Assembly: GCA_025655595.1 (NCBI GenBank) | Contig: JAHXIO010000010.1 | Span: forward strand, 62,001-126,000 | Direction of reading: 5' to 3' | Source of the DNA: Candidatus Thiodiazotropha sp. (ex Monitilora ramsayi) | GTDB taxonomy: Bacteria > Pseudomonadota > Gammaproteobacteria > Chromatiales > Chromatiaceae | Length of the DNA: 64,000 nucleotides | Shown here: one piece after another, positions 2,297 to 53,009 of the stretch | Layout: the number at the start of each line of letters is the position of its first letter | Position numbering within the stretch: position 1 is the first letter of the stretch | Notes under the pieces: generated by a model | Database searches by the model: none | What the model was told of the DNA's origin: nothing | Seen by the model: only the letters and a program-made list of their open reading frames with translations | Position numbers and translations under genes: made by a program

Positions 2297-2410
2297 TATC
2301 CGGCATCCGCCCATCAGCTGCACTGCGGGATATGCCCCACAAAATGTAGTGAAATCCCTCACTCACTCTGATCTTGAATTTTTTTTACAGATATTTCAAT
2401 AAGATAAATC

Positions 2411-2426
2411 TGGCCCGCCAATTGCT
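2411..2426 (+). promoter_or_regulatory. Sigma-54-type -24/-12 promoter candidate for the TonB operon
   Basis: TGGCCCGCCAATTGCT matches the consensus TGGCACG-N4-TTGCW except for C in place of A at the fifth base. GG and GC are separated by exactly 10 bases as required. It lies 89 bases before the ATG of the TonB-dependent receptor gene in a 218-base gap with no other gene, and its orientation fits. An AT-rich tract lies just upstream. The activator protein and its binding sites are not identified. Confidence 0.55.
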
Positions 2427-2514: not shown

Positions 2515-4683
2515 ATGAAGTACCCTAAAACTAGAAAACAGCTGATTCTCAGCATTACTCTCCTCAACACTCTCATCCCCACATCCATCCTTGCTGAAGA
2601 AACAAGCACTGGCAACCTTGAGGAGACCTCTGACTACGACGTCATCAGTGTCACCGCAACCCGTATTGAACGAGGTACCAAAGAGGTCGCGGGTGCTATC
2701 GATGTGATCGACTCGGAACGCATCGAAAGCGAAAAGATGTTCAACATCAAGGATGCCATTCAAGGCACACCCGGCGTGCTCATCGACTCCAAGAACTCCG
2801 CATACGACAGTCGTTTGATCATTCGCGGCGCAGGGCAGAAAGCCAACTACGGCGTGCGTGAGATCATGGTGATTCGGGATGGTGTCCCCATGACCGATCC
2901 CGACAGTTTCTCACGCTTCGACTTTATCGATACCCAGGATATAGAGCGCATTGAAATCACCAAGGGTCCGGGTTCTCTTTACGGTGCCGGGTCATCCGGC
3001 GGCACCATTCAGATCATCTCCAAGTCAGTCTTCGATACCGACAGCAACCGGGTCAAGGTCGGTGCCGGTGAGTATGGTCAGTCCAATCTTCACGGTCGGG
3101 TTGCCGGCGACATCAACGACAGCAACGCCTTTTCCCTGACCGCCTCATATCGTAAGAGCGACAACGACTGGCGCGACTGGAATGAGTTTGAGTCGAGCCA
3201 GGTCAGTTTCAAACACGGGCTCCTGCTCGACAATGAGGCCACACTGGAATCGGAGCTGAGTTATCACAAAGCCGACCTGCAGATCCCCGGCTCAATGGAT
3301 GAAAACGACTTCGAGAGATACCTCGACAGCGGAGAACAACGCGACACCAGCAGCCAATGGCAGCACAGTGGGCGCTACTCCACCATCTGGTTCTTCAACT
3401 CCCGCTATGAGCAGGAGATCGGTGATCTGACACTCAAACCGCGCATCTACGCCAACTACTGGGATCACTACCATCCGGTTACCGGCGCCATCAACGACAA
3501 CCCGGGTACTATGGTCATCGGGACAGATTTGGAATTTGCCTACCAACATCATCTATGGGGGAAAAGTACACTGGTAAGCGGTATTACCGCACGCCGGGAT
3601 GAGACCAAAGATTCCAAGAAATTTGCCTATGCAGATCTGGAGACGAATCCCCCACCCCCTTGGAACCCGATGGGACCCGATACCATTGTTCGCACGCTCT
3701 CTGACCGTCCAGGTGATCTGCTGGAAGTGGAGGATGCGACCAACACCCTCTACGGTATATTTCTTCAGGAGACCTTGCGTCCCACGGAAAGGACAACATT
3801 GGATATCGGCTTCCGCTACGACCGTACCAGCTTCGATATCGACAATACCGCTTTCGGTGAATACGACTGGGGCAGCTCCAGTTACGTCTTTTTCCCTACA
3901 CCTGTCACCACTCTGACCGACAAGACCTTCAACCTTTTCTCTCCCAAACTGGGCATCACCTATGCCCTGAATGAGGTTTTCAATGTCTATGGTGTAGCCG
4001 CCCAATCCGGTCAAGTTCCCTCCGAGTCTGAGATTCAGGGTAATCCAAAGCTGGATGCAGCAACCGCCCGAAATATCGAGGTGGGCCTGAAGGGACGTTC
4101 CCGGGACTGGTCGCTGGATCTCTCCATCTACAACACAAGAGTTACCGATGAGATCGTCTCTGTGCTCAATCCCGATTTGACTACCGAGCATCAGAATGCC
4201 GGAAAGACATCCAAGAAGGGCGTGGAGATAAGCGGACGATACAACCTGACGAACCGGTTCTGGACTGAGGCTGGATTCGCCTACAGCGATTATACCTTCG
4301 AGGAATTCATTGAGTTGGTTCGCGCAGGTCCGGTGCAGATTCCGCACGACCGATCAGGCAACCGGCTACCATTTGTACCCAGACAGCAATACAGCCTCGG
4401 ATTGGGTTACAGCCACCCATCAGGCTTTAAGGCCGTAGTCCGCAGCAATAGCTGGGGAAGTTACTACATGGATAACGCCAACACGGAGAAATATGAGGGT
4501 TATGAGTTCCTCACCAACCTTATGTTGGGTTATTTCACCGGTCCCCATAGCCTGCAGTTGAATGTCTCGAACCTGTTTGACAAACGCTATGCCACTGAAG
4601 TGAAGAAAAGTACCAATGGTGACAAGACTTACTCCGCAGGCGCCCCCCGCACTGCCATGCTGAGCTATGCCTACAGCTTTTAA
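2515..4683 (+). CDS. TonB-dependent outer-membrane receptor
   Basis: A 722-residue outer-membrane receptor and first gene of a seven-gene operon. The N-terminus is a signal peptide ending near SILA-EE. A TonB-box-like segment DVISVTATR follows around residue 43, then a plug domain (RGTKEVAGAIDVID, LIIRGAG, IERIEITKGPGSLYG) up to about residue 170. The rest is beta-barrel, with a C-terminal NLFDKRYAT motif and terminal aromatic residue (AYSF). It binds an unknown ligand and imports it using TonB. The operon carries its own ExbB, ExbD and TonB plus two redox membrane proteins, which hints at a metal or metal complex rather than vitamin B12 or sugar. No ligand-specific motif was recognised. Confidence 0.93.
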   Translation: MKYPKTRKQLILSITLLNTLIPTSILAEETSTGNLEETSDYDVISVTATRIERGTKEVAGAIDVIDSERIESEKMFNIKDAIQGTPGVLIDSKNSAYDSRLIIRGAGQKANYGVREIMVIRDGVPMTDPDSFSRFDFIDTQDIERIEITKGPGSLYGAGSSGGTIQIISKSVFDTDSNRVKVGAGEYGQSNLHGRVAGDINDSNAFSLTASYRKSDNDWRDWNEFESSQVSFKHGLLLDNEATLESELSYHKADLQIPGSMDENDFERYLDSGEQRDTSSQWQHSGRYSTIWFFNSRYEQEIGDLTLKPRIYANYWDHYHPVTGAINDNPGTMVIGTDLEFAYQHHLWGKSTLVSGITARRDETKDSKKFAYADLETNPPPPWNPMGPDTIVRTLSDRPGDLLEVEDATNTLYGIFLQETLRPTERTTLDIGFRYDRTSFDIDNTAFGEYDWGSSSYVFFPTPVTTLTDKTFNLFSPKLGITYALNEVFNVYGVAAQSGQVPSESEIQGNPKLDAATARNIEVGLKGRSRDWSLDLSIYNTRVTDEIVSVLNPDLTTEHQNAGKTSKKGVEISGRYNLTNRFWTEAGFAYSDYTFEEFIELVRAGPVQIPHDRSGNRLPFVPRQQYSLGLGYSHPSGFKAVVRSNSWGSYYMDNANTEKYEGYEFLTNLMLGYFTGPHSLQLNVSNLFDKRYATEVKKSTNGDKTYSAGAPRTAMLSYAYSF

Positions 4684-4692
4684 GGATCTCCT

Positions 4693-5496
4693 ATGAATAG
4701 ACATATGCCTATACCGATACTGGCCGTCTCTATGCTATTGACTCTCCCGGTTGCTCTGGGCGCTGTAGAGACGGGCACTCAAGCGAGTGAGCCACAACCC
4801 CAAGCACACAACAATCACCGAGGGCCGAAGCAACTCGTACTGGAAAATGGCCTTGGCGCCAAGGTCACCTTATGGAAACCGGATCTTACCACCCAGCCTG
4901 TCACCCCTGAGCACGGCATGTTCACCATGCCCAAGACCGGCATGGACAATTACCACGCCGTTATCGCCGAAAGAGATTGGGGTAACTTGAAAGAGACGGT
5001 CATCCGGTACGAATATCAGTTCGGCAAACCAAGCAAGCGTAGCCCGAGCGAACTGGCCGGGACGGTCAAGACCGACTTTGAGATCATTCCCGACCCGATT
5101 CCCCGCGAACACTATCGGTACCACTCAAACGAAACCTGGGGCTTCTTGCTTCGTCTGCACGGCGAACCCGCCCAGAACATCCCGGTTAGCTTCGAAAGTG
5201 AGAACGGCAGCCAAATGAAGTCCGTGACCGATGAGAGAGGGTATGTATCATTCAGATTACCGGATGATTTCCCCGATATTGTTCCCGGAGAACGGGATCG
5301 ACGCAGTGCAGGATTCACAATCACTGCGGAAACTGAGAATGCCGGAATCACCTATCAAACCATGCTCACTGCTGACTACAGGGTCGCCCCTGAGCATTGG
5401 CAGTCGACTCAATTAGGGTTGCTCGTTGCAGGCATAGGTCTCATCACAGGCGGTTTAATCGGTAGAGTAAAGCTGCAGGGGGGTAAGAAAAAATGA
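4693..5496 (+). CDS. Periplasmic DUF4198-like protein with C-terminal membrane anchor
   Basis: A 267-residue exported protein. It has a signal peptide (LTLPVALGAVE), a beta-rich periplasmic part and a single C-terminal membrane helix (LGLLVAGIGLITGGLIG) followed by a short basic tail. The segment RLHGEPAQNIPVSFES...DERGYVSFRLPD resembles the DUF4198/NikM-like fold found in accessory proteins of metal uptake systems. This is recognition by eye, not a profile hit. A His/Met-rich stretch HGMFTMPKTGMDNYH near residues 74-88 could be a metal site (inference). AAGGAT precedes the ATG. It lies 9 bases after the receptor gene and overlaps the polyferredoxin gene by ATGA. Confidence 0.6.
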   Translation: MNRHMPIPILAVSMLLTLPVALGAVETGTQASEPQPQAHNNHRGPKQLVLENGLGAKVTLWKPDLTTQPVTPEHGMFTMPKTGMDNYHAVIAERDWGNLKETVIRYEYQFGKPSKRSPSELAGTVKTDFEIIPDPIPREHYRYHSNETWGFLLRLHGEPAQNIPVSFESENGSQMKSVTDERGYVSFRLPDDFPDIVPGERDRRSAGFTITAETENAGITYQTMLTADYRVAPEHWQSTQLGLLVAGIGLITGGLIGRVKLQGGKKK

Positions 5497-6548
5497 GCAG
5501 TATCGCCAACCTCAGCGTCATCCGAAAACTGGTTCAGATCGCCACCTTCGTCTTCTTTGTTTATGGTGGTCTCATTACCGGTTACTACCTCGAAGACAAG
5601 ATCAGTAACGCCCTGCCTGCATTGAGCTGCGCCTACGATAAAAATGGAGCCGACCTCTGCACACTGATCCCCATTCAGCACCAGATGGATCATCGATTGG
5701 GTGAAGCCATTGCCAAAGGCGGTAACCTGATGATGGGCATCATGCCCACGCTCATCACATTGGGAACCTTCCTGCTGTTCTTCGTCTTTCTCAACAAGGC
5801 ATTCTGCGGCTGGGTCTGCCCTCTGGGCACCTTCCAGGAATTTCTGCACATGATTGGCCAAAAGATTGGCCTTAACCGAAGGGAGTCGCTGGATAACGGT
5901 CTGGTCAATCGAATTCGCCCGGTGAAATGGTTCATCCTGCTGGTACTGGTCTTTGGTTTTCCCCTCCTGACCGGTATGGGTATGGTGAACCACGATCTGG
6001 GCGATCCCTTCTGCCGCATCTGTCCCAGCCGGATACTCACCACACTGGCCACCGGCGACAGTTCGCAGGTTTTCGTGGACACTGCCAACTCCACCACCAT
6101 CTTTTTCTCTCTGCTGGCCGATTTTCTTTTCGGCTTGATGGTGGCACTGGCTCTCACAGTCAGACAACCTTTCTGTCGCATCTGCCCCATGCTGGCGATG
6201 CATGCGATATTTCGCAAAATCGGCCTGCTCAAACTGGTGAAAAGCGGTACTCCCAGATGTGACCGCTGCGGCCTCTGCGCCAAGGCATGTCCAATGGACA
6301 TCCGTGAAATCCATACCGATATGGAGCGACGGGATGTGACCTTTGAGGACTGTACCCTCTGTGGCCGGTGTGTCGAATTTTGTCCCGACAAGGACGTTCT
6401 GAAGCTGAAATACACCTTTTTTCCTGTCTTCACTTCGAGTCCGGAGTATTTTAAATCCCGTAAAAAAGCGCAGACAAAATGGGAAAAAGCCAACCTCATC
6501 GACTGGCTGAAGAAAGGGAGAGGCAAACCTCAGGTAGAAAACCCATGA
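5493..6548 (+). CDS. Membrane-bound 4Fe-4S polyferredoxin (NapH/NosR/CcoG-like)
   Basis: A 351-residue inner-membrane iron-sulfur protein with about four membrane helices in the first 225 residues. It has CxxxCP at C105/C109 (FCGWVCP), paired FCRICP motifs at C174/C177 and C228/C231, and two classical ferredoxin clusters, C256-C266 (CDRCGLCAKACP) and C287-C297 (CTLCGRCVEFCP). This is the architecture of NapH, NosR C-terminal and FtrD-type proteins, which carry electrons across or at the membrane. In this operon it could reduce imported ligand or metal, or drive the neighbouring CcdA-like protein. The start overlaps the previous stop (ATGA). Confidence 0.82.
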   Translation: MSSIANLSVIRKLVQIATFVFFVYGGLITGYYLEDKISNALPALSCAYDKNGADLCTLIPIQHQMDHRLGEAIAKGGNLMMGIMPTLITLGTFLLFFVFLNKAFCGWVCPLGTFQEFLHMIGQKIGLNRRESLDNGLVNRIRPVKWFILLVLVFGFPLLTGMGMVNHDLGDPFCRICPSRILTTLATGDSSQVFVDTANSTTIFFSLLADFLFGLMVALALTVRQPFCRICPMLAMHAIFRKIGLLKLVKSGTPRCDRCGLCAKACPMDIREIHTDMERRDVTFEDCTLCGRCVEFCPDKDVLKLKYTFFPVFTSSPEYFKSRKKAQTKWEKANLIDWLKKGRGKPQVENP

Positions 6549-7255
6549 TGCCTATCGAACCCGTCGCCCTGAGCTTCGGTGCTGCCCTCCTGCTGGGCCT
6601 GGGTTATGGCAGCGGGCCCTGCAATATCGCATGCCTGCCCTATCTCGGTCCGGTATTTGCGGCAACCGGAGGTGGTATCCAGGGTGCCTGGCGCACATTA
6701 CTACCCTTCACAATGGGCCGTCTCAGCGGCTACACCCTGCTGGGGGGACTGGCAGGTGGGCTCGGCCTGCTGATCGAGGATTGGTTGGCGTCGCCCTGGG
6801 TACACTGGCTGTTGGGTGCGGCGACACTGATGGTCGGCCTTTCGATCTTAGTCCGTCGCAACCAATCGACCTGCACGGCAGCTTGCGGACAAACAGCTTC
6901 AGTGACCCTGGAAACCGGACCAGGTGAGCCTGCAACATCGACACGACAGAAGATGCTGCCGGGAGGGCTCTACCTGATGGGCTTCGGCATGGCACTCAAT
7001 CCATGCGCTCCCCTGATGACCGTCGTACTTGCATCGGCCACCAGTGCCAGTATGATCAGCGGCATCTCATTGGGGGCCGGTTTCGCATTGGGCGCCGTCT
7101 TTGTGCCGACAATCGTCTTTGCTTTCGGTGTGGCGCATTTCGGACAGCAGATAAGGCACCATTTGTCGCGACACCGTATCGCCCTGGAAAATACCAGCAT
7201 CGCATTGCTGATGATGACCGGCGCAGCCACTGCGCTGGGATGGATAACGCCATGA
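6545..7255 (+). CDS. CcdA/DsbD-like thiol-disulfide membrane protein (annotated as TauE/SafE-like in relatives)
   Basis: A 236-residue polytopic membrane protein with about six helices. It resembles the DsbD transmembrane/CcdA family: GPCNIACLPYLGP (C26 and C30) in the first helix and NPCAPL (C153) in the fourth, the pair that moves reducing power from cytoplasmic thioredoxin to the periplasm. A second CxxxC (C110/C114) lies in the central loop. The ORF track starts at 6479 inside the upstream gene; ATG at 6545 overlaps its stop (ATGA). No thioredoxin-like partner is encoded in the operon. Sulfite export is unlikely given the cysteine motifs and context. Confidence 0.72.
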   Translation: MMPIEPVALSFGAALLLGLGYGSGPCNIACLPYLGPVFAATGGGIQGAWRTLLPFTMGRLSGYTLLGGLAGGLGLLIEDWLASPWVHWLLGAATLMVGLSILVRRNQSTCTAACGQTASVTLETGPGEPATSTRQKMLPGGLYLMGFGMALNPCAPLMTVVLASATSASMISGISLGAGFALGAVFVPTIVFAFGVAHFGQQIRHHLSRHRIALENTSIALLMMTGAATALGWITP

Positions 7256-7911
7256 ACATTGCAGAACTATTTGCCAAAGGGGGTCCAGTCGTTTGGATTC
7301 TCGCCGCCTACTCCTCGATCGGTCTCGCGATCGTACTGGAAAGAAATATCCTCTTTCTGCGTTTGCGGCAGCTGCCCAAGCAGTGGCTCGGTAAGTTGGA
7401 TCGATTACTGGAGCAAAAGGACGCTTCCGACCTTGTGGGGCAACTGAAGGGACCTGAAGCACGCATCATTCAGGCTGTCGTTGAGGCCGACCGAGACGGT
7501 GTCAAGGACTTGCAGGGGGTAGGACAGCGTATCCGTTCCCAGGAGATTCAGCGTATGGAATTCGGCCTGCGAACCCTTGGCATTCTGGGCAATACTGCAC
7601 CACTCCTCGGCCTGCTGGGTACGATTACCGGAATGATCAAAGCATTCATGGTCATTGAGCAGGCTGGAGGCAAGGTGGATGCCCAGGCATTGGCCGGCGG
7701 CATCTGGGAGGCCATGATTACCACCGGTGTCGGTCTCGCCGTAGCCATTCCGCTTCTGCTTTTACTGCATTTCCTCGAAGGCAGTGTCGAGCGACGAGCC
7801 CAATCGATGAGCCGGTGCATTGCCCTGCTGCTGGAACGCCGCTCCAGTTCAAATAGTGAAGAGCAAGCCGATCAGCCCCACAGCTGGGAACAAGTCACCG
7901 ATGGCGTCTGA
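7252..7911 (+). CDS. exbB: ExbB/MotA/TolQ family proton channel protein
   Basis: A 219-residue inner-membrane protein of the ExbB-ExbD-TonB motor. The N-terminal helix follows GGPVVWILAAYSSIGLAIVLERN; the conserved core is GILGNTAPLLGLLGTITGMI and the third helix TTGVGLAVAIPLLLLLHF. The ATG at 7252 overlaps the previous stop (ATGA); the track start at 7003 is inside the CcdA-like gene. It forms the proton channel with ExbD and energises the TonB encoded two genes on, for the receptor at 2515. Confidence 0.92.
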   Translation: MNIAELFAKGGPVVWILAAYSSIGLAIVLERNILFLRLRQLPKQWLGKLDRLLEQKDASDLVGQLKGPEARIIQAVVEADRDGVKDLQGVGQRIRSQEIQRMEFGLRTLGILGNTAPLLGLLGTITGMIKAFMVIEQAGGKVDAQALAGGIWEAMITTGVGLAVAIPLLLLLHFLEGSVERRAQSMSRCIALLLERRSSSNSEEQADQPHSWEQVTDGV

Positions 7912-8302
7912 ACGTAGACGACACTCGTCGATGGTGCTCAATCTGACACCTCTGATCGACATTGTCTTCCTGCTACTGGTCTTTTTCATGCTAACGGCTC
8001 ACTTCATCGAAGATGAGGCGATTCCAATAGACCTGCCGGAGGCGGCAAACAGCGCGGTCAGTGAAGAGAAGGGATTTGTCGAGATCTCCATGACACCGGA
8101 TGGTCAGCTGCGGGTGGATGGCCATCCTGTCGAAATTGAGGAGCTGGAAGAGTCTCTGAGGGGTGCTCTGCACGCTCCCGAGAAACGATTTGTCCGATTA
8201 AAGGGAGACCATAAGGCGCAATTTGGTCTTGGCGTAAAAATAATCGACGCCGCCAGGGCTGCCGGCGCTGAATCATTGGATATTCTGACTGAAAGACCAT
8301 GA
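7901..8302 (+). CDS. exbD: ExbD/TolR family biopolymer transport protein
   Basis: A 133-residue protein with one membrane helix and a periplasmic domain. The helix LTPLIDIVFLLLVFFML carries D20, the conserved proton-path aspartate of the family. The ATG at 7901 (MASERRRHSS) gives the usual short basic cytoplasmic tail and overlaps exbB by 11 bases; the track start at 7820 lies inside exbB. It works with ExbB to power TonB. Confidence 0.93.
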   Translation: MASERRRHSSMVLNLTPLIDIVFLLLVFFMLTAHFIEDEAIPIDLPEAANSAVSEEKGFVEISMTPDGQLRVDGHPVEIEELEESLRGALHAPEKRFVRLKGDHKAQFGLGVKIIDAARAAGAESLDILTERP

Positions 8303-8997
8303 ACCGGTGGGATGTTAGCTGGCGAATGACAGCCATCGTCGTTTCGTTGTCATTGCATCTCCTGGTGGCTGTCAAATGGTCAGATCGCATCCTGGTCTCA
8401 GCAGCGGAGAATGAGAAAAATCAAAAGCCACTTTTTGTACAACTTAATTTCCCACAACCCAAACCGGAGAGTGTGATGCCGGTGGTTGAGCCACCGCCAC
8501 CAGTCGTTGAAAAGAAACTCGAGCCTAAACCCATACCTAAACCGAAGCCTAAGCCTAAGCCCAAACCGAAGCCGAAACCCAAGCCGAAGCCTGTTATCCA
8601 ACCCAAGCCGGAACCGCCACCCCAGGTTACGCCTGAGGAGGAACCGGAGATCATAGAAGAGGTCGTCGCCAGTACACCCCCACCACCACCGCCCAGCAGC
8701 ATGCAGACGGACCGGATTCGTGAGGAATATCTAGCCAGACTGATGGCCAAGATCGAAAAAAACAAGTTCTATCCTACGATAGCAAGACGCAGACAACTTC
8801 AGGGCAGGATCCGTGTTCGCTTCACACTGGGCTGCGATGGCAAAGTGGAAGGACTGGATGTCAGTGGAAAGCACAATCTACTCCGTAAAGCGGCCAGTAA
8901 AGCAGTCGAGGCCTCTCTTCCGCTACCCAGTTTACCGCCTGAGATCGACTGCCCTATGCTGGTCGACTATGCAATGGCCTATACGCTTGAAAAATAG
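8299..8997 (+). CDS. tonB: TonB energy-transducing protein
   Basis: A 232-residue TonB. The N-terminal helix ([17 protein letters not shown]) contains the SxxxH motif (SLSLH) used to engage ExbB-ExbD. A long Pro-rich spacer has nine Pro-Lys units and EEEPEIIEE. The C-terminal domain ([25 protein letters not shown]) binds TonB boxes. The ATG overlaps the exbD stop. As last gene of the operon it is presumably dedicated to the receptor encoded first. Confidence 0.93.
8536..8589 (+). repeat. In-frame Pro-Lys codon repeat in tonB (9 units)
   Basis: Nine CCN-AAR codon pairs encode (PK)9 in the periplasm-spanning rod of TonB. Codons vary between CCT, CCG, CCC and AAA, AAG, so the repeat is kept at protein level rather than as recent slippage. 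Confidence 0.85.
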
Positions 8998-51661: not shown

Positions 51662-53009
51662 ATTTGTTCACCAGGTCATAGAGTGTCGGACGGCTGACAC
51701 CCAAGAGCTCTGCAGCACGCGAAACATTCCCACCCACATAATTCATGGCGCGGAGAACAGCCGAAGCCTCGGCTTTTTCCCTCACCTCTCTAAGATTGAG
51801 TGGCATCGTATTTTTACTTTCCGTATTCAATTGTAGAGCATCCAGGGTAACCACCTGACCCTCTGTCATAATGACGGCTCTCTTGATCCTGTTTTCCAGC
51901 TCCCGGACATTCCCTGGCCAGTCGTATTCCTCTATAGACCGAAGTGCTTCATTCGTAAATCCGGTCAATCGACTTGAACTTAAGTCACTATACTTTTTCA
52001 AGAAAGACCATGCCAATAGCACAGTATCGCCGACACGCTCTCTCAATGCAGGGATATCGATCGTTATCTCGCTGATTCTGTAGAAAAGATCCTCCCTGAA
52101 TTCACCGAGTTTTATCTTTTCTTCCAGATCCTGATTGGTGGCACATATAACCCTGACATCAACAGGGATCTCCTCTCTGCCGCCAATTCTCTCAATCACA
52201 CGCTCCTGAAGAAACCTGAGCAGTTTAGCCTGCAGGCCCATGGGCATGTCTCCAATCTCATCCAGAAACAGCGTTCCCCCATTGGCTGTTTCGATTTTAC
52301 CAATGGTCCTTTTTGAAGCCCCGGTAAAAGCACCCTTCTCGTAGCCATACAATTCACTCTCCAGGAGATTCTCTGGTATTGAGGCACAATTGATAGCGAC
52401 AAACCGTTCATTTCGATGCTCACTCAAGCCGTGTATCGCCCTGGCCAGTACCTCTTTACCGGTCCCGCTCTCACCTAGCAGTAACGCGGTAATATCGGTT
52501 GGACTGATCTTTTCTATCACTCGGCAAACTTCCAGCATCTCAGGACTATTGGCAATGACACCGTCAAGAGGTGAATTATTCTGGCTCGCATTGAGAGCCA
52601 GGTTTTCCTGTTCCAGCAGATACAGATTGAATGCCCGCTCGATAATGATCTTCAAAACATCCGGATCAATCGGCTTGTGGTAGAAGTCATATGCACCCAT
52701 CTCGATGGCTTGTAGCGCATTCGCTCTGTCATCATTACCCGTTACGACTATCACTTTTGTTTGCGGTTGGAGATCAAGAATCTCCTGCAAAGCACTGAAC
52801 CCCTCCGACGCATTTGTCGGATCCGGTGGAAGTCCTAAATCCAGAGTAATAACCGGTGCGTTTGTTTTTCTCAGCAGATTGATTGCCTCGTTTCTGTCTC
52901 CGGCCACATGGACTTCGTAACCGTCGAAGCTCCATTTCAGCTGGCTCTGCAGCCCCGGATCGTCTTCGACTACGATGAGCGGTTTCAAATCACTTGTTGT
53001 TTTTGTCAC
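51648..53009 (-). CDS. prsR: PEP-CTERM-box response regulator PrsR (sigma-54 activator)
   Basis: A 453-residue NtrC-type activator. The receiver domain has D57 (VITLDLGLP) and the YHKPID lysine. The AAA+ domain has [12 protein letters not shown] and the sigma-54 contact loop GAFTGA; the C-terminal helix-turn-helix is [22 protein letters not shown]. It starts with GTG overlapping the PrsK stop by four bases, so the kinase and regulator are coupled. It should activate sigma-54 promoters of PEP-CTERM and exopolysaccharide genes. Confidence 0.94.

Follow-up and report, generated by a model that had tools for sequence, protein, structure and literature searches.

Little is known of how bacteria turn on the copper importers of their outer membrane. 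Among characterised copper TonB receptors, OprC/NosA and CrtA come closest to the system described here. OprC/NosA (P. aeruginosa, P. stutzeri) carries out TonB-dependent outer-membrane copper uptake tied to denitrification, a role that the present operon may share, and how oprC is regulated is described as unknown (PMC8610252). CrtA/BfrG of Bordetella is a copper-repressed copper TonB transporter, accompanied by ExbBD/TonB in some operons; its control is post-transcriptional, by CruR, its partners are PepSY_TM proteins, and sigma-54 is not reported (PMC12914433). Our open-access text search returned no paper joining RpoN/sigma-54 either with TonB receptors and enhancer-binding proteins (EBPs) or with copper and N2O reductase, and no copper TonB importer with a sigma-54 promoter was met in the text searched.

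The MmoR/sMMO copper switch of methanotrophs consists of a sigma-54 promoter under an EBP that responds, directly or not, to low copper. This switch controls an enzyme operon and is not known to control TonB importers, nosZ or NosL. Here we describe, for Thiodiazotropha, sulfur-oxidising bacterial symbionts whose hosts are lucinid clams, a defined promoter layout together with an operator motif and a candidate regulon. The candidate regulon covers copper import, NosL/PCuAC delivery and nosZ; since copper supply limits N2O reduction, the proposed switch would bear on greenhouse-gas release.

Results

The window (the whole stretch analysed, 64,000 nucleotides, positions 62001-126000 of contig C6 of the Candidatus Thiodiazotropha genome G000) contains a seven-gene operon at 2515-8997, 5' of which lie genes that we read by eye as aat and ate (leucyl/phenylalanyl- and arginyl-tRNA-protein transferases). 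All seven genes are on the forward strand. They encode a TonB-dependent receptor of 722 aa (2515-4683; PF00593 and PF07715), an exported protein of 267 aa with a C-terminal membrane segment and without a family match (4693-5496), a NapH-like membrane polyferredoxin of 351 aa (5493-6548; Fer4_5, Fer4_10, TIGR02163 below cut-off), a SafE/DsbD_2 membrane protein (6479-7255, the true start being probably at about 6545; PF13386, E 2e-18), an ExbB-like proton channel subunit (7240-7911; PF01618), an ExbD-like subunit (7898-8302, start estimated; PF02472) and a TonB-like protein (8299-8997; PF03544). The closest solved structures to the receptor are those of YncD/PqqU; the copper receptor CrtA (9rvq) was also matched, weakly (E 1e-12); CrtA differs in its post-transcriptional, CruR-mediated regulation. 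A near-invariant HxH (H318, H320) and an invariant M118 in the receptor are candidate copper ligands. Siderophore-type receptor profiles were matched in a general way, below cut-off. The receptor is placed outside the OprC/NosA family, TIGR01778 not being among the best 25 profile matches listed, and it differs from that family also in having its own ExbB-ExbD-TonB, NapH-like and SafE proteins. A second related receptor operon (L188:9785-19076) encodes a receptor, a counterpart of the 267 aa protein with a weak DUF4198 match (below cut-off), NapH-like and SafE proteins and a MacB-like ABC protein; it carries the same copper repeat as described below.

The predicted sigma-54 promoter, TGGCCCGCCAATTGCT (2411-2426, forward strand), was called by pattern match and conservation. 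In agreement with the earlier note, TGGCCCG-CCAA-TTGCT departs from TGGCACG-N4-TTGCW by a single change (A to C), with the correct GG-N10-GC spacing, and lies before the receptor ATG at 2515. Such a bare match is uninformative, because the whole genome holds 30 one-mismatch matches and the reversed control 27; within the window, 10 matches with two or fewer mismatches were found against 9.9 expected by chance. It is only through conservation that the element rises above chance. A search of 2200-2600 for a sigma-70-like promoter was negative. The earlier observation of a poor Fur box likewise holds, the best match in 2297-2514 reaching 10 of 19 positions, which is the chance level in shuffled sequence (mean 10.75; P 0.94).

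A scan of genome contigs yielded 50 related loci, in about 19 of which the site is present, 104-285 bp before the start codon. While this distance varies, the repeat, the IHF-like site and the -24/-12 element keep together as a block. Among 20 anchored promoters (75 columns) the flanks are variable and exactly five columns are invariant, the G of -24 and the TTGC of -12, all of them in the core; the chance that all five should fall in the seven core columns is 1e-6 if relatedness is ignored. Of the -24 GG pair, the first G is present in all but one of the 20 promoters, L010 having lost it. Absence of conservation in related genomes had been named in the earlier note as grounds for rejecting the promoter; the core is in fact conserved before orthologous receptors in Thiodiazotropha and one or two genera besides, namely that of G024 and, with weaker evidence, the more distant genus of G036 (CGGTTAGTCGCTTGCA at the matching place). 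It was not recognisable in the receptor promoters of Sedimenticola, G010, G046 and G050, although the repeat is kept there. In the receptor operon of G046 (upstream region L116) a perfect FNR box, TTGATTTCCATCAA, stands in place of the -24/-12 element, which suggests that the type of promoter was exchanged from one genus to another.

Beyond the earlier note, the analysis brought to light an upstream paired repeat, an IHF-like site and a link to copper. The repeat, a pair of 10-bp palindromic units and a probable upstream activator site (2327-2358, no strand assigned), was recognised by alignment of the 20 orthologous promoters, all of which contain paired GTGATATCAC-like units, 19-22 bp apart, about 85 bp upstream of the -24/-12 element. 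In the window the units are GGGATATGCC (2327) and GTGAAATCCC (2349), spaced by 22 bp; they form a degenerate version of the consensus GTGATATCACC-N7..11-GTGATTTGRC. Among relatives the repeat is kept more widely than the -24/-12 element. The IHF-like site TTTCAATAAGATA (2394-2406, forward strand) has two mismatches to WATCAANNNNTTR, which we take to be the IHF consensus; a site of this kind lies just 5' of the -24/-12 element in most orthologous promoters, and in many relatives it is perfect or has one mismatch. No conserved upstream block besides these was seen in the alignment of orthologous promoters. In order and spacing the elements correspond to a sigma-54 promoter driven by an enhancer, and the region may well work in this way. 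Core, IHF-like site and paired upstream palindromes stand in the same usual order in NifA-, NtrC- and NorR-type promoters; the repeat itself does not match the NifA site (TGT-N10-ACA) or the NtrC sites.

The search with a profile of the repeat (R2), built solely from this receptor promoter, covered 14 relatives and 22 genomes of the genus. The receptor itself aside, the matches of R2 lie mostly 5' of copper genes: the OprC/NosA-type TonB copper receptor, Sec-type nosZ, a NosL operon (encoding FtsX, SafE and two NosL proteins), PCuAC, SCO1 and a multicopper oxidase; the second receptor operon, with its NapH-like and SafE genes, is matched too. The genome from which the window comes has the repeat before its NosL operon at C5:7162, and R2 recovers the window repeat weakly (E 2). 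Some weaker matches are without a copper gene, at several unidentified places and at a ZnuA gene; this last is the ZnuA-type metal-binding protein gene of one genome (L276:815-1823). Across 147 genomes of the order, matches are confined to Thiodiazotropha and four genera of the family. In nosZ promoters an FNR box overlaps or abuts the repeat and there is no -24/-12 element; NosL promoters also have the repeat without this element, with FNR-like boxes seen by eye in several genomes; and PCuAC promoters bearing the repeat show no -24/-12 element and no exact FNR box. The window operon thus shares its repeat with copper genes, which points to co-regulation within a putative regulon, and it is because of this sharing that we read the operon as copper-related.

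The OprC promoters found in the scan provide an independent test. The receptor encoded at these loci is identified as OprC by TIGR01778 (600 bits against a cut-off of 472) and by the PDB structure of OprC (E 4e-100), and all nine promoters show the layout of the window operon, that is, repeat, IHF-like site and sigma-54 element. In each of them the strict pattern HTGG-N8-YTGCW lies 96-98 bp from where the repeat begins. The promoters belong to two diverged clades, TTGGCTCGAAAACTGCT and ATGGACCGATATTTGCT, whose sequences differ apart from the core. Because this pattern has a background of 1e-4 per base (one per 10,000 positions), its recurrence at OprC is not due to chance. Thus OprC in Thiodiazotropha and the window operon share a promoter layout, which, together with the conservation before orthologous receptors, bears out the sigma-54 promoter call of the earlier note.

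Discussion

The element at 2411-2426 is, with high confidence, a real sigma-54 promoter. That its -24/-12 match is a functionless chance near-consensus, as the equality of genome-wide one-mismatch counts with the control would allow, is very improbable, given a core that is invariant over 20 orthologs with variable flanks and recurs at OprC. The operon likely serves copper import, and the promoter and the copper assignment together are a somewhat less secure, though still likely, conclusion; copper as the ligand is suggested by association only, the receptor itself lying outside the OprC family. Almost every TonB receptor characterised so far serves iron, and the operon could import iron, a siderophore or heme under Fur control, the usual arrangement for such receptors, as the general siderophore-type profile matches would also allow. 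This alternative appears improbable, in view of the chance-level Fur box and of a regulatory repeat common to copper genes; the physiology probably concerns the acquisition of copper rather than of iron.

From evidence that is comparative throughout, we infer transcription by sigma-54, copper as the ligand, an EBP as the binder of the repeat and low copper as the signal. A copper-status activator would occupy the paired repeat at 2327-2358 and act as an enhancer, IHF would bend the DNA between repeat and promoter, and RNA polymerase-sigma-54 would initiate about 12 bases after the -12 element, so that the importer operon would be transcribed; the same binder would be present at further copper genes in Thiodiazotropha. 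The promoter likely has a dedicated activator, and the repeat points to a copper regulator, so far unnamed. That the binder of the repeat is the EBP itself is slightly favoured. A tentative and rather unlikely extension is that one copper-responsive EBP, upon copper shortage, turns on the TonB copper importers via sigma-54 and blocks FNR at nosZ, whose FNR box the repeat overlaps; on this single-EBP reading N2O reductase would therefore not be made without copper. The repeat occurs also at promoters without a -24/-12 element, and the binder may therefore be dual-acting or not an EBP. Promoter and copper operon could both be real while a separate copper regulator that is not an EBP binds the repeat, and another EBP activates from a site that we did not recognise. 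The greater age and wider distribution of the repeat relative to the -24/-12 element, and its presence at FNR-type and sigma-70-type promoters, are in keeping with such a separate regulator. It nevertheless seems doubtful, since in both kinds of TonB importer promoter the repeat keeps an almost constant, enhancer-like distance upstream and an IHF-like site lies in the interval, and since the alignment shows no further conserved upstream block.

The genome encodes one RpoN and 20 full-length EBPs. Family scores clearly identify NifA, NtrC and a PEP-CTERM-type regulator among them; one further EBP has its best match to NtrX, below the cut-off of that family. Three EBPs were considered as activator and rejected. 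L097 is present in 7 of 10 receptor genomes and in 18 of 47 others (Fisher p 0.09) and is missing in the repeat-bearing G046; L093, also in 7 of 10 receptor genomes, is missing in the repeat-bearing G010; L098 is present in only 2 of 57 genomes. The sensor part of the kinase paired with L097 (L194:2342-5547) contains a CxxCH (heme c-type) motif; orthologs of this kinase occur in 25 of 57 genomes of the family, and one of them sits 5 kb from an SCO1 repeat site. No EBP adjoins the receptor operon in relatives except in Sedimenticola selenatireducens, where a pair of histidine kinase and sigma-54 EBP (L021:35-2055) lies 6 kb upstream; despite this pair, the receptor promoter of that species is without a -24/-12 element.

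With a model of the whole promoter, the next match in the window's own genome (E 0.004) is at a VgrG-like gene, and was taken as chance. The window also contains, at about 52059-52556 on the reverse strand, the gene of a PEP-CTERM-box sigma-54 response regulator (L088; TIGR02915, 713 bits), and a one-mismatch -24/-12 site, TGGCCCGATATTTGCT, lies at G000:C4:345038, near a predicted PEP-CTERM protein gene.
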